Shown here piece by piece: positions 1,810 to 28,346 of a stretch of DNA of 34,614 nt. The stretch's first letter is position 1. The number at the start of each line of letters is the position of its first letter. Under the pieces are notes generated by a model, which saw nothing but the letters and a program-made list of their open reading frames with translations, was not told the DNA's origin and made no database searches. The stretch comes from an uncultured bacterium (GTDB lineage Bacteria; Verrucomicrobiota; Kiritimatiellia; RFP12; UBA1067), in contig CACXPT010000019.1 of the NCBI GenBank assembly GCA_902769585.1, positions 1-34,614 of the forward strand. The letters are read 5' to 3'. Made by a program: the position numbers and the translations under genes.

Positions 1810-3147
1810 CTACACATGGTAAATCAGCCGCTCTGGCAAATCGGACGCAGCCATAAACATGACCATGTAAATCGGCAAGTAGGTGATTCTGCCGACACGT
1901 TCCAGGTTCTCGTTGCTCAGCACAAAGGCCTCGTCAATCTGGTAGTTGGCGTCTGCAAGCACGTTGCTCAGGGCGTTGTGCCGTTTGTAGTCCTTGCCGC
2001 TCTTCACCTCTATCGGTGTCACACCGCCGTCGCGCTCCACCACGAAATCCAGCTCTCCTCTTTTCTTTGAATGGTAGTAATAGGGAGAGATGCCTTTGGC
2101 CAGCAATTCCTGGGCGACCACGTTCTCATAGACGGCCCCGATGTTCAGTCCGCTTTCGCCTGCAAGCAGGCGCAGTTGGATCCCGCCCGCATACATTGCC
2201 GCCAGCAGTCCCACGTCATTGGCAAATAGCTTGAAAAGGTTGCGCTTCTCCGAGAGCTTCAGCGGTGCCTTGGGCTCTTCCACGCAATAAGCGGGAATCG
2301 CAACTCCGGCATTCTTCAACCAGAGAAATCCGTCCTCCACCCGCGTGAAACGACTCCCCGAGACGACGCTCGCCATCTTGAACCGACGGTTTTCAGATGC
2401 AAGTTCAGAGGGTAGAAGATCGTAGACCTCGCGTATGCGCAAGGCATGGTCCGGGTCGTATTTCGAAATGTCGCGGCGATAGGCGCGTATCACGAACCGC
2501 TGCTCGGCGACGACTGCGGAGAGATCATTGGTGGCCACATACCTGTCGACTGCGGCCGGCATGCCGCCGACAACGAGATACAATCTGAAATAGCGCATCA
2601 GCCTGTCATGAACGAAGGAATCCACCTTCCGTCGGCCTTCCCAGGCCGCCCGCGCCTCGCCGATCACGTCTGCGCCCACGCCGTTTGCCCAAAGAAACTC
2701 CTCGAAGTCCAATGGATACATCTCGCTTTCATCCATGAATCCAACAGGAACAGATCGCACATTCTTCAGCTCAACGCCCAGAAACGATCCACTGTAAACA
2801 TAGTGGCATCGCCCCTTGCCGGCAAGAAACTTTGCGTATGTGACGGACTCGGGACACTCCTGCACCTCGTCGAAAAACACAAGCGTGCTTCCTGGAATCA
2901 GCTTGCCGTTCGCGTATGCCGACAGGCGGCGAAGGACGTCCTGTTCATCCGACACGTCGTTGAAGATGGCCTTGGCCGCAGGTTCTTTGATGAAGTTTAT
3001 CTCCACCAAAGACTGATAATGCCGTTTCGCAAACTCTTCAACGATGAAGGTCTTTCCGACCTGCCGTGCACCTGTTAAAAGCATGGCCTTCCTATCGGCA
3101 ACCTCATGAAAGGCCTCCAATTCTCGCCATATTCTTCTCTTGAGCAT
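1810..3147 (-). CDS. AAA_14 / DUF4143-type ATPase, 445 aa
   Basis: Member of the prokaryotic AAA+-like ATPases with a C-terminal DUF4143 domain. Walker A is GARQVGKT at 26-33 and Walker B is LVFFDE at 89-94 (Asp93, Glu94). The sensor-like VYSGS is at 117-121. The C-terminal domain carries a PD-(D/E)XK-like signature, with Glu341, Asp367 in GELDF and Glu380-x-Lys382 in PIEVK, suggesting a nuclease fold; activity in this family is not established. These genes are frequent in accessory regions, often in many copies, and their role is unclear (defence or stress is inference). The start at 3147 follows GGAGAAAAAGA. It is monocistronic, with its own promoter, and lies between toxin-antitoxin modules and repeats. 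Confidence 0.9.
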   Translation of the reverse strand: MLKRRIWRELEAFHEVADRKAMLLTGARQVGKTFIVEEFAKRHYQSLVEINFIKEPAAKAIFNDVSDEQDVLRRLSAYANGKLIPGSTLVFFDEVQECPESVTYAKFLAGKGRCHYVYSGSFLGVELKNVRSVPVGFMDESEMYPLDFEEFLWANGVGADVIGEARAAWEGRRKVDSFVHDRLMRYFRLYLVVGGMPAAVDRYVATNDLSAVVAEQRFVIRAYRRDISKYDPDHALRIREVYDLLPSELASENRRFKMASVVSGSRFTRVEDGFLWLKNAGVAIPAYCVEEPKAPLKLSEKRNLFKLFANDVGLLAAMYAGGIQLRLLAGESGLNIGAVYENVVAQELLAKGISPYYYHSKKRGELDFVVERDGGVTPIEVKSGKDYKRHNALSNVLADANYQIDEAFVLSNENLERVGRITYLPIYMVMFMAASDLPERLIYHV

Positions 3148-3166: not shown

Positions 3167-3200
3167 ATGGTATTATACCATCACTTTGGCAATTCCGCAA
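3167..3200 (-). promoter_or_regulatory. promoter of the DUF4143 ATPase, with palindrome over the -10
   Basis: Extended -10 TGG-TATAAT with TATAAT at 3177 to 3172. It is embedded in an 8-bp dyad, GATGGTAT-T-ATACCATC (3167-3183), that would suit a repressor. The TTGCGG of the first 33-bp repeat (3200 to 3195) sits exactly 17 bp upstream and could serve as a weak -35. Confidence 0.6.
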
Positions 3201-3275
3201 CCCGGAAATACCCATTTCTCGACAATTCCGCAACTTGGGAATGGCCTGTTTTTGACAATTCCGCAGCCTGCGACG
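3187..3275. repeat. 33-bp tandem repeat, about 2.7 copies
   Basis: CAATTCCGCA recurs at exact 33-bp spacing (AATTCCGCA at 3191, 3224 and 3257). The intervening parts are less conserved but share a GGAAT/GGAAA segment. Read on the minus strand the unit would encode 11-residue AEL-type repeats, but there is no start or coding context, so it is treated as non-coding. Confidence 0.8.
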
Positions 3276-24610: not shown

Positions 24611-25036
24611 CTACTCCTCAGCAAAAGGATTGAATATGGGAACGCCCATTCCCGCCATGTCGTTTACGTTGCGCGTGACGAGCGTCAACCCATGAACAGA
24701 AGCTGTCGCCGCGATCAAGGCATCAACAGCAGGACGCCTTCTGCCAATTCGTTCACCCTCACCGCAGATCCGGCCCCATTCTAAGGACACACTTCGTTCC
24801 ACAGGCAGAATACGGTCGGCGAACTCCCCAAGTATCTTGTCCTGAAGCCACCGTTCAAGTCGTTGAGCCCGCAAATCCCCGCCGCGCTTTGCAATCCCTT
24901 TCTCGATTTCCCCAACCGTGACAAACGAGATGTAAAGTGAATCGGACGGCTGACGCTCCAACCAATCCACAACCCTCGGATTTGGGATTCGGTTGACCAA
25001 TTCGCTGATGACACATGTATCCAGGAGATACTTCAT
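24611..25036 (-). CDS. vapC: FitB/VapC-type PIN-domain toxin, 141 aa
   Basis: PIN-domain RNase toxin of a type II pair. Acidic residues: Asp6 (LLDTCVISEL), Glu43 (TVGEIEKG), Asp105 (PAVDALIAAT), with Asn123/Asp126 in TRNVNDM. The LLDTCVISEL opening and the D-x-L-I-A-A-T-A block are those of the FitB-like subgroup. The start at 25036 overlaps the antitoxin stop (ATGA), with AGGGA ahead. It is only distantly similar to the toxin at 1072-1476, so the two are separate acquisitions rather than a recent duplication. Confidence 0.92.
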   Translation of the reverse strand: MKYLLDTCVISELVNRIPNPRVVDWLERQPSDSLYISFVTVGEIEKGIAKRGGDLRAQRLERWLQDKILGEFADRILPVERSVSLEWGRICGEGERIGRRRPAVDALIAATASVHGLTLVTRNVNDMAGMGVPIFNPFAEE

Positions 25037-25293
25037 AGGTCGATGTCCCTGCCAAAGTCCGAGGGATCACGGGTAACATCAAGGGACTCGCCGTCTTCCA
25101 GCTTCGGACACGACAGCAGGGCTTCGACAAATGTGCGAGGCTTGTGCCCGACGCGAACGACGGGAACCGTCTGCGACGCGACAGGGGCCAGGGGGACGAG
25201 AATCACCTGAAAGGAATACGAACTGTATTCCCTCGGAATCGAGACGCTAATCCTGTTTCGGCGCGGTGTTGCTATGGTCTCAATCGGCGGCAT
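25033..25293 (-). CDS. antitoxin partner of the PIN toxin, 86 aa
   Basis: A small protein starting MPPIETIATPRRNRISVSIP whose central V-S-I-P-R-E-Y and the C-terminal F-V-E-A-L-L-S-C-P ... F-G-R-D-I-D-L pattern is common in antitoxins encoded just before FitB/VapC toxins. The C-terminal tail would bind the toxin active site. The start at 25293 has AAGGAG 5 nt ahead, supported by the promoter at 25322-25327; the very long alternative frame reaching 25995 is a shadow of the opposite-strand gene. ATGA overlap with the toxin. Confidence 0.85.
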   Translation of the reverse strand: MPPIETIATPRRNRISVSIPREYSSYSFQVILVPLAPVASQTVPVVRVGHKPRTFVEALLSCPKLEDGESLDVTRDPSDFGRDIDL

Positions 25294-25405: not shown

Positions 25406-25497
25406 GGGCACGAAAATGGTATTGTTGGATATTTCGTGCCCGTTTCTGACATAGCCATTCCGGGCACGAAATATCCTTCTGGCTTGGTTTCGTGCCC
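25406..25497. repeat. four-site inverted-repeat array of GGGCACGAAA
   Basis: GGGCACGAAA occurs at 25406-25415 (+), 25432-25441 (-), 25462-25471 (+) and 25488-25497 (-). Each +/- pair has exactly 16 bp between arms, and the two pairs are offset by exactly 56 bp. In addition GGATATTTCGTGCCCG (25427-25442) and its exact complement (25461-25476) form a 16-bp dyad. The last site lies 9 bp before the -10 of the next gene, so the array could be a set of operators; a dispersed palindromic element is the alternative. Confidence 0.85.
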
Positions 25498-25520
25498 GGA
25501 ATGTGGTATGATTTGCATGA
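25484..25520 (+). promoter_or_regulatory. promoter of the PD40/cytochrome gene, leaderless geometry
   Basis: TTGGTT (25484-25489), 17-bp spacer, extended -10 TGG-TATGAT (TATGAT at 25507-25512), then seven bases to the ATG at 25520. The -35 overlaps the last GGGCACGAAA site. Confidence 0.6.
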
Positions 25521-28346
25521 TGAAAAAATCAAGATTGAACATTTCGTACATCACGTTACTGGTGATTGCGGCGCTGGCGGCAGGCCGAGCCGACGGCGAG
25601 TTCATCTCACCTCGCCATTCGCAGGTGGAGATGAAGGGAAACTGGTACCCTGAGATACAGCGCGCGGGAAAGGAAACGCGCTGCCACTGGATGTCGGGCA
25701 CGGCCGGCGAATCCGCAACGTTGCGGTTCGAGGGAACCTCGGTGGCGGTGTCGACGCGCACGGGGGCGCGCGTCACGTGGCGGAACGTGACGCACACCAA
25801 CTCGCTGGCGAGGCTCGGTCGCTTCGCCGTGCGGCTGGACGGACGTTCGCTTGCGCCGATCAGCCTTGCCGGGTCCGAGACCGACGCCACCGCGCGTCCC
25901 GAACGCTCGCAGGCAGCGGTGATCACCGTGGCGAAAGGCCTCCCCGAGGGGCCGCACGTGCTGGAACTCGTCAACGACGGTGGCGGCGAGGTCACGCTGG
26001 CGGGCTTCGTCCTGGACCGGCCGCAGAAGGGCGCGGAACCCGACTATTCCCGCGAATCGCCGGAACTCGCCGCCGAAACGCGCTGTCTGCCGCCGATCCT
26101 GTTTGTGGAGGGGGCGCCGGTGCGGACGTTTTCCGGACCGTCGAAGATCGGATTCTCCTCGTGGCCGAACGACTATGTGTGGGGCGCGGCGATCAAGGCG
26201 TTCGACCCGGCGTATCCCGAAAAGCCGCCGCGCGTTCTCTTCTCCGAGGACGACTCCTACATCCTCGACCTGGCCCTGTCGTACGACGCGAAGACGATCT
26301 GGTTCTCCATGCGCCGCCACAAGTCGCCGTGCTGGCACATCTACAGGATGAACGCGGACGGTACGGGTCTCGTGGCGCTGACGAGCGGCCTCTCCCACAA
26401 CACGTCCCCGGCGCCGCTGCCCGACGGACGCCTCGCGTTCATCTCCTCGCGCGAGCCGCTTACGCACCTCGTCTGCGCGGAAGGCCCGTCCACGCGCGTG
26501 CACGTGATGGAGGCGGACGGATCGGGCGTGAAGATGATCTCGTCCAACACGCTGGCCGACTTCTGCGTGACCGTGCGCCGCGACGGGCGGCTGCTCTACT
26601 CGCGCTGGGAGTACGTGGACTGGAACATCATGTCGCGCCAGTCGCTCTGGACGCAGTATCCCGACGGACGCCATCTGGAGCTGTTCTTCGGCAACCTGCT
26701 CGACGACCCGCCCACGCTCATCCAGGCACGCGAGCTGCCGGACGCTCCGGCGTCCGTCGTCTGCACGTTCGCGCCGCACCACGGATCGCCCTACGGCGCC
26801 ATCGGCGTGGTGTCGGCGGAAAACGGCCCCGAGGGGCGGCGGGGCGCAGAAGTGCGCTGGCTCACGCCGGAGTTCCCGTCCATCATGGACTTCAACCACC
26901 TCTGGTCCTACTGCTGTCCGTACCCGCTCGGCGGCGGGCGCTACCTCTGCTCGTACGGGGGCGGCGGAACGCATCGCTACCGTCTCTCGCTCATCGACGA
27001 GAAGGGAAACCGGGCCACGGTGTACGATCCGAAGACGACGAGCGCGTTCTGCGCGACGCCGTTCGTCGCACGGCCGGCGCCGAAGACGCTCGCGTCGTTC
27101 ACACCTGCGGAGGTCAGGAGCGTGAAGGTCCCAGCCGCGCCGCCGGGACAGCCGTCCGCGGAGGAGGTGAAGGTGGGCTTCCTGTACGTGACGGACGTGA
27201 CGCGCGGCTACGCCGAGGGCGTGGCGCGCTCGGACGTGAAGGCCGTGCGCATCATGGAGCAGCTGCCGAAGACCGTGGACCTGGGCGGACTGCGCGCCTA
27301 CGACCAGAGTCCGGTGATGGGCGTGGGCACCTACTACGCCAAGCGCGTCTGGGGGTATGCGCCCGTGGAGGAGGACGGCAGCGCGTACTTCGAGGTGCCG
27401 GCGATGAAGGAGATCTACCTCCAGCTGGTGGACGGCGACGGACGCGAGCTGCTCCGCATGACGAGCGCCCTCCACGCCGCTCGCGCCGCCGGACGGGCTA
27501 CGGGCCGGGGTCATCGACTACATGCGCGACGTGCAGCCAATCTGGAACGGACATTGCGTGCGCTGCCACGGCGGCACCGACCCGGCCGGCGGGCTCTCCC
27601 TGGAGGACGGGCGTACGCGCTTCTTCTGCCGGAGCTACGACGGACTGAACGAGCGCGCGCAGAGCGACCGCACGAGCTACCTCTCGTACGGCGGCGCCCC
27701 CGGCGCGGGGAAACGCAAGCCGCTGATCCACTCCATCCTCCTCAACTACGGCTTCGCCGACGTTCTGCAGCCGCGCCAGACCGGATCGTGCGCGAGCCGT
27801 CTGCCGGAATATCTGGAACGCGCCCACTGCGGTTCCGACGTGACGCCGGAGGAGCGTCGGCGCGTGTACGAATGGATTGACGCGATGGTGCCGTACTATC
27901 CCACCACCGACTGCGCTCACCTGAACGCGCGTGGCAAGCGCGACCGCTGGGGCGAGCCGGACTCCGAAAAACTCGCCCCGTGGGCGGTCAAGTACACGCG
28001 CGTGTTCGCGCGTTCGTGCGCGTCGTGCCACGGCGCGTTCACGCCGGACCGCGTGGGCATCACCGGCGACAGGCGCTGGGAGTGGGTGGACCTCACGCGG
28101 CCCGATGCGAGTCCCGCGCTCGTCGCGCACCTGCCGAAATCCGCCGGGGGGAGGGGCCTTTCCGCCAACGGCAAGTTCTCCTTCTCCGGACGCGACGACC
28201 CGCTGTGGCTCGAACTGAGGGAACTGTTCCGCGCGGGCGCGGCGTTTGCCGCGCAGACGCCGGAGCCGGACGAGGCGGGATTCGTCCCCCGCTCCCGCGG
28301 CCGTCTTGAATACGAGACGCTACTCAAGTCCCGCGCACAGCCTTGA
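25520..28346 (+). pseudogene. PD40 beta-propeller / HzsA-like multiheme cytochrome c protein, frameshifted
   Basis: Two frames together make one family member. Frame A runs from 25520 (signal peptide MKKSRLNISYITLLVIAALA) through a beta-sandwich domain (ESATLRFEGTSVAV), a TolB/PD40-like propeller (HIYRMNADGTGL near residue 272, PLPDGRLAFISSR) and an HzsA middle-domain-like region to about 27465. Frame B, open from 27462 to the stop at 28346, carries GVIDYMRDVQPIW, heme motif CVRCH (27555-27569) and CASCH (28017-28031). They differ by one base near 27465-27480. Relatives normally have, at this junction, a segment with P-G-E-x-x-x-C-x-G-C-H before the proline-rich linker. That segment is missing, so a deletion, not just a single-base slip, is likely. 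The product would be a secreted redox or surface protein; function of the family is not settled. Start 25520 is preferred over 25517 by promoter spacing. Confidence 0.75.

Follow-up and report, generated by a model that had tools for sequence, protein, structure and literature searches.

The locus raises the question of which protein reads an array of four identical half-sites placed on the promoter of a TolB-like/cytochrome-c gene, and whether that protein belongs to this gene at all. Throughout, "the window" means the whole stretch of DNA analysed (34.6 kb). The first-pass annotation had described four GGGCACGAAA sites in alternating orientation, 16 bp separating the two sites of a pair, a 56-bp offset from one pair to the next, and a perfect 16-bp dyad joining the middle sites; each of these points was reproduced exactly (Table 1). 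The dyad arms occupy 25427-25442 and 25461-25476, and another perfect pair of 16-nt arms occupies 25456-25471 and 25488-25503. These four are the only exact copies in the window, and allowing one mismatch gave 5 matches in total versus 3.0 expected. The promoter-like element consists of a -35-like TTGGTT (25484-25489) and a -10 TATGAT (25507-25512) separated by 17 bp, and the -10 ends 4 bp 5' of the ATG. The last site had been said to cover the -35, which is correct for the final two bases of TTGGTT, but the rest of the site lies in the 17-bp spacer.

Table 1. Array half-sites, promoter, and downstream gene, in window positions
Feature	Positions	Strand	Basis
Half-site 1, GGGCACGAAA	25406..25415	+	exact match in sequence
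Half-site 2, inward partner of site 1, offset 26	25432..25441	-	exact match and repeat arms
Half-site 3, offset 30 from site 2 and 56 from site 1	25462..25471	+	exact match and repeat arms
Half-site 4, inward partner of site 3, offset 26; within the -35/-10 spacer	25488..25497	-	exact match and repeat arms
Promoter-like TTGGTT-N17-TATGAT	25484..25512	+	read directly in sequence
TolB-like/cytochrome-c gene, broken	25517..28346	+	comparison with orthologue

In the genome bin (4.9 Mb in 365 contigs, 79% complete), the exact 10-mer occurred 11 times, versus 2 for a reversed control pattern. Paired sites (GGCACGAA..TTCGTGCC) were found at four places, two of them within the window, and at none for the control. 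The two pairs outside the window (C86 and C170) each lie directly 5' of a gene for an AAA-type ATPase, and 25 of 96 genomes of the family carry paired sites. A genome with REP/BIME palindromes has them in many nearly identical copies, dispersed among its unrelated genes; here there are four pairs in 4.9 Mb, and the two non-window ones precede ATPase genes. A generic dispersed repeat was rejected on the small number of pairs genome-wide, their absence from the control, and their location at ATPase promoters, and the random scatter that the first-pass annotation had named as the outcome against its reading was not seen. The coherent gene set that it had proposed to look for is not a classical regulon, each ATPase paralog having a private motif built on the common geometry. 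No plasmid match was found.

Among 35 fetched stretches of relatives, the four-site layout (0/26/56/82) recurred at eight loci besides the window, with varying DNA between the half-sites. At five of these eight, an intact ATPase of ~475 aa starts 45-52 bp from the array; at two the ATPase is decayed (L053 and L054, the latter as fragments), and at one (L055) a contig end cuts the gene just past its start codon. Three exact sites are kept at four further loci (L058-L061) and a degenerate set at L062. An intact ATPase stands beside the partial array at L060 and L062, whereas the gene is cut by a contig end at L061, the start soon diverges without an ATPase match at L059, and no ATPase was found at L058. 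Likewise, no adjoining ATPase was found at the single pairs L057, L063, L065, L066, L067, L069, and L071, and some of these ATPase-less single pairs are probably chance occurrences or relics. At L053, an intact four-site array remains beside residues 1-29 and 448-475 of the ATPase, which illustrates the origin of orphan arrays. Relatives also carry another recurrent class of 33 bp, palindromic over almost its full length (GGCACGAACAGCCAGATTCTGGCAGTTCGTGCC and similar sequences) and partly 5' of RGGSL-type ATPases, at L072 (3086, 4554), L073 (633, 2324), L042, L039, L035, and L083, twice as two copies ~1.5-1.7 kb apart.

The array-bearing ATPases are proteins of ~475 aa with an N-terminal ATPase_2 domain (PF01637), a winged helix, and a C-terminal PD-(D/E)XK motif. 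The ATPase_2 P-loop domain scored above the Pfam cut-off in all three array-bearing ATPases scanned (L051, L094, and L095), the winged helix corresponds to an HTH_20 match at residues 254-296 of the L095 protein, and all five ATPases scanned matched PADLOC PDC-S27 models (best E 8e-46 to 2e-194). In the putative nuclease motif (D401, E414-x-K416), D401 and E414 are invariant and K416 is present in at least 90% of the rows of two alignments (A1 and A2). Foldseek returned 2fna (Sso1545), 2qen (a Pyrococcus Walker ATPase), ORC/Cdc6 subunits, and the plant NLR resistosomes Sr35, Roq1, and NRC4 as top matches, so that the modeled structure appears to have the ATPase-winged-helix fold of STAND NTPases such as Sso1545, Cdc6/ORC, and NLR proteins. 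The AlphaFold model of the L144 protein (pLDDT 91.7) features helices 267-274 and 280-291 and wing strands 295-298 and 313-316; 280-291 would be the recognition helix and 313-316 would lie in the wing, which puts residues 278, 281, 282, and 311 at the places where a winged helix is expected to contact DNA.

The genome bin contains 34 PF01637 matches. When its ATPases were aligned (24 rows, with C86 twice, and a further alignment), none exceeded 55% identity with the reference ~475-aa ATPase. The C86 protein, whose own site is GGGCACGAAAT, was the sole aligned own-genome ATPase with both R278 and H281, and the C170 ATPase has R278 and S281.

Arrays of this kind proved to be a general property of the family. 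We collected 212 ATPase genes from the own genome, the family, and named genomes, using a P-loop pattern and at least 150 bp of upstream sequence, and took as controls 198 other genes with intergenic upstream DNA in the same loci. Relatives came from 14 of the 16 genomes of the genus, which hold up to 55 such genes each, and 80 stretches of them were fetched; the named set comprised 80 loci, distributed over Kiritimatiellae, Verrucomicrobia, Chlamydiae, Bdellovibrionales, Bacteroidales, and other groups. Inverted-repeat arms of at least 10 bp were found upstream of 153/212 ATPase genes (107/138 in the family set and 46/74 in the named set) versus 20/198 control genes; the shuffles run on the family and named sets preserved base composition only. 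In the own genome, arms of at least 9 bp were present in 18 of 26 ATPase genes versus 1.6% of dinucleotide shuffles, and the 5 of 26 genes without arms of at least 8 bp were three 361-369-aa SSO-like and two ~440-aa forms.

These inverted repeats differ considerably in sequence between the paralogs of the own genome, and GGGCGACTAAAT and CCTCACCTATT are examples of other paralog operators. The arms lie ~8-18 bp from the dyad, and the half-site offsets measured in 71 non-redundant genes clustered at 24-26 (inward), 29-31 (outward), and 54-56 (same strand), with loop sequences varying while the offsets stay fixed. The 26/30/26 layout of the window is thus the family layout, regardless of sequence, and the window promoter is arranged like the promoters of array-bearing ATPases (TTGATT-N17-TATCAT).

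If each ATPase reads its own half-sites, the sequence of the sites should follow that of the DNA-reading residues. For the covariation tests, 45 genes with arms below 9 bp were left out and 167 kept, and restriction to class I (>38% identity to the reference) together with redundancy filters gave 77 or 71 genes. The half-site alignment was seeded with GGGCACGAAAT, and half-sites were oriented without use of the proteins. Half-site similarity correlated with domain similarity in the order winged helix, ATPase, and nuclease (Mantel r of 0.29, 0.25, and 0.22, respectively; 77 genes); the winged-helix correlation controlled for the ATPase domain was 0.17 (0/2000 permutations), whereas that of the ATPase domain controlled for the winged helix was 0.066 (57/2000). 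In a scan of 409 columns, residue 278, just before the recognition helix, came out on top (t = 13.0), followed by wing residue 311 (7.2). The pairs of residue 278 with base 6 and with base 7 lead among 4,334 residue-base pairs, the observed maximum being 0.367 versus a top permutation maximum of 0.262, and 0/200 permutations reached the observed value. The ATPase-domain residues A163 and T160 were also high in summed MI, so shared ancestry contributes to the signal.

When separately examining nearest-neighbour proteins, it was observed that bases 5-8 agree in 84% of 27 pairs with the same residue 278 but in 40% of 25 pairs with a different one (p = 1e-6). Mostly, R278 goes with ..ACGAAAT, K278 with ..ACCTATT or ..ACCTAAA, N278 with ..GTGAAAT, and P278 with ..AACTAAA or ..GACTAAA, while residue 281 follows the outer bases (H281 mostly GGG, S281 TGG, D281 CCT or TCT), with exceptions in most classes of either residue. 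Residue 278 predicted base 7 correctly in 41 of 49 cases on leave-one-out, versus 22 for the majority base, and in 7 of 11 held-out named genes versus 2 of 11; in the latter set, the gain for bases 5, 6, and 8 was marginal or nil, and base 1 was predicted worse than by the majority base (9 versus 11 of 17). Operator sequence thus changes with the residues by which the neighbouring ATPase would read DNA, as in autoregulated operators, and PDC-S27-type ATPases very probably read their own operators, as far as sequence comparison can tell.

We consider it likely that the window array is the operator of a PDC-S27-type STAND ATPase (PF01637, winged helix, and PD-(D/E)XK), now standing without its ATPase by a broken cytochrome gene. 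A search of the whole window for an ATPase or a decayed remnant of one gave no match; since the gene is absent from the window, the array is probably an orphan, an ATPase operator/promoter that was either left behind or captured. The genome bin being 79% complete, the cognate ATPase may sit in the missing sequence. Such an ATPase would bind its operator through the winged helix, either as dimers or as a larger assembly spanning two or four half-sites, and the constant placement of the arrays suggests that the bound protein would control its own transcription. Private half-site sequences would prevent cross-talk among the tens of paralogs per genome, and the C86 ATPase, with its R278/H281 combination, may still bind the window array in trans.

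Relative to the promoter, array placement falls into two classes. In window-type promoters a half-site lies within the -35/-10 spacer, and repression is therefore the likelier mode for the window array, judging from position. In the majority of other family genes, the -10 begins 39-43 bp past the start of the last inward site, with the dyad near -60, a typical class I activator position. An extra half-site hidden in the promoter spacer of this majority class was not visible on average. The quality of the -35 does not separate repression from activation: the best match averaged 3.7 of 6 in 31 array promoters versus 2.9 in 41 controls, so that array promoters are not the poorer ones and an activator reading from poor -35 boxes is not supported.

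A different role for the same protein was also considered. Here the ATPase-nuclease would use the array for parking, sensing, or cleavage (for instance, it would be held inactive on its own gene until infection), and transcription control would be secondary or absent. The presence of the predicted nuclease motif in the very protein whose winged helix would read the site is compatible with such a role, as is the finding that in most genes the array does not span the promoter core but lies upstream of it. The constant distance to the -10 in most genes fits transcription control instead, and we regard the parking or cleavage role as unlikely.

The first-pass annotation had suggested a cooperative dimeric regulator, but ownership of the operator by such a protein, separate from the ATPases and acting on the cytochrome gene, is very improbable. 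It would account for the position of the array right at the cytochrome promoter, where the final half-site falls in the spacer, but the array is absent at five cytochrome orthologues of the genus that are 89-96% identical (G063, G065, G041, G036, and G027) and at a partial orthologue (G008, 91%), and the same array stands 5' of ATPase genes in relatives. In G041, G036, and G008 the ATG of the orthologue is closely preceded by a plain extended -10, and in G063 and G065 an ATPase-like gene of another type, named by eye, ends just 5' of the orthologue. The window gene is itself broken: its frame changes near 27462-27475 and residues 656-684 of the orthologue, with a CAGCH motif, are missing, owing to a real mutation or to an error of assembly. 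Because close orthologues lack the array while ATPase genes elsewhere have it, the sites were not assigned to the cytochrome gene, and a cytochrome-specific operator was rejected; the covariation of half-sites with the ATPase winged helix points the same way. What stands of the earlier suggestion is an oligomeric DNA-binding regulator, consistent with the geometry and the covariation.

A structured element that acts as RNA or as a DNA cruciform (a hairpin, an attenuator, or a dispersed palindrome of the REP type) is hardly credible, and RNA as the main function was rejected, despite palindromic pairs and the strong fold of the array segment (z = -7.9), because in most genes the arms lie upstream of the -10 and would not be transcribed from that promoter, loops vary at fixed offsets, the half-sites of different paralogs are unlike each other and follow a protein domain, and the pairs sit at ATPase promoters instead of being scattered.

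Two observations concern the surroundings of the cytochrome genes. Just left of the window array, on the minus strand (24611-25293), lies a gene for a PIN-domain (VapC-like) protein, overlapped by a small gene upstream of it; the two are likely a toxin-antitoxin pair. Near-palindromic dispersed repeats of type GGTCGCGCAGGAGCGCGACCCTCCC were found 5' of the cytochrome orthologues at L117, L118, and L126 and are recurrent in these genomes.

Returning to the ATPase operator, its known counterparts include regulators. MalT is a STAND transcription regulator. MalT and IniR resemble the array ATPases in joining a STAND/AAA ATPase to a regulator, but they control other operons, whereas each array ATPase paralog would read a private operator on its own gene; to our knowledge, regulators of these two types carry no nuclease. 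The BrxR/WYL family and RptR are said to be autoregulators of defence islands, with defence genes under operator control; they are separate regulators, whereas in the array ATPases the candidate effector itself has the reading domain. The AAA domain of IniR has been likened to Sso1545 (PMC5760070), also the best structural match here.

PDC-S27 itself is described as an ATPase fused to a PD-(D/E)XK member and a single-gene phage-defence candidate (PMC12988326), and it and its sister PDC-S01 are counted with the most common defence candidates that await validation (PMC12988326, PMC13356809). The array ATPases match the PDC-S27 models and share this make-up; the account, in its available text, covers neither an operator nor self-recognition nor a test of S27 (PMC12988326), whereas the window has the operator only and no gene. 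PDC-S27, its ATPase-PD-(D/E)XK make-up (PMC12988326, PMC13356809), and STAND regulators such as IniR (PMC5760070) are thus already in print. In the open-licence PubMed Central papers searched, we found no description of operators of PDC-S27-type ATPases, nor of private operators combined with common geometry and a recognition code, and the control of PDC-S27 and PDC-S01 is not addressed in the available text of PMC12988326 and PMC13356809.

With a private operator, a shared geometry, and a code, the bound DNA, the oligomeric state, and the trigger become assayable with short oligonucleotides. Operators become predictable from protein sequence, orphan operators mark lost ATPase genes, and each genome supplies tens of naturally occurring regulator-operator pairs, possibly mutually orthogonal. 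As a tentative generalization, the PDC-S27 ATPase-nucleases might form a huge family of self-reading immune regulators with private four-half-site operators of universal geometry and a code in which residue 278 specifies inner and residue 281 outer bases; the operator-bound protein could be both sensor and switch, and operators that outlast their genes could, as orphan arrays, rewire neighbours like the cytochrome gene of the window.

The DUF4143/AAA_14 ATPases (PDC-S01) are another parallel, a sister ATPase-nuclease family with private repeats 5' of promoters, but these are direct repeats at 33 bp, unlike the inverted pairs of the PDC-S27 arrays. The private direct repeats are spaced by 32-34 bp; repeats of at least 10 bp were found in 10/22 genes of the own genome and in 0% of shuffles, with almost none at the other spacings tested. 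One set lies in the window at 3190-3265, upstream of a minus-strand DUF4143 gene (1810-3147), and others occur at L338-L341, L343-L346, and L355.
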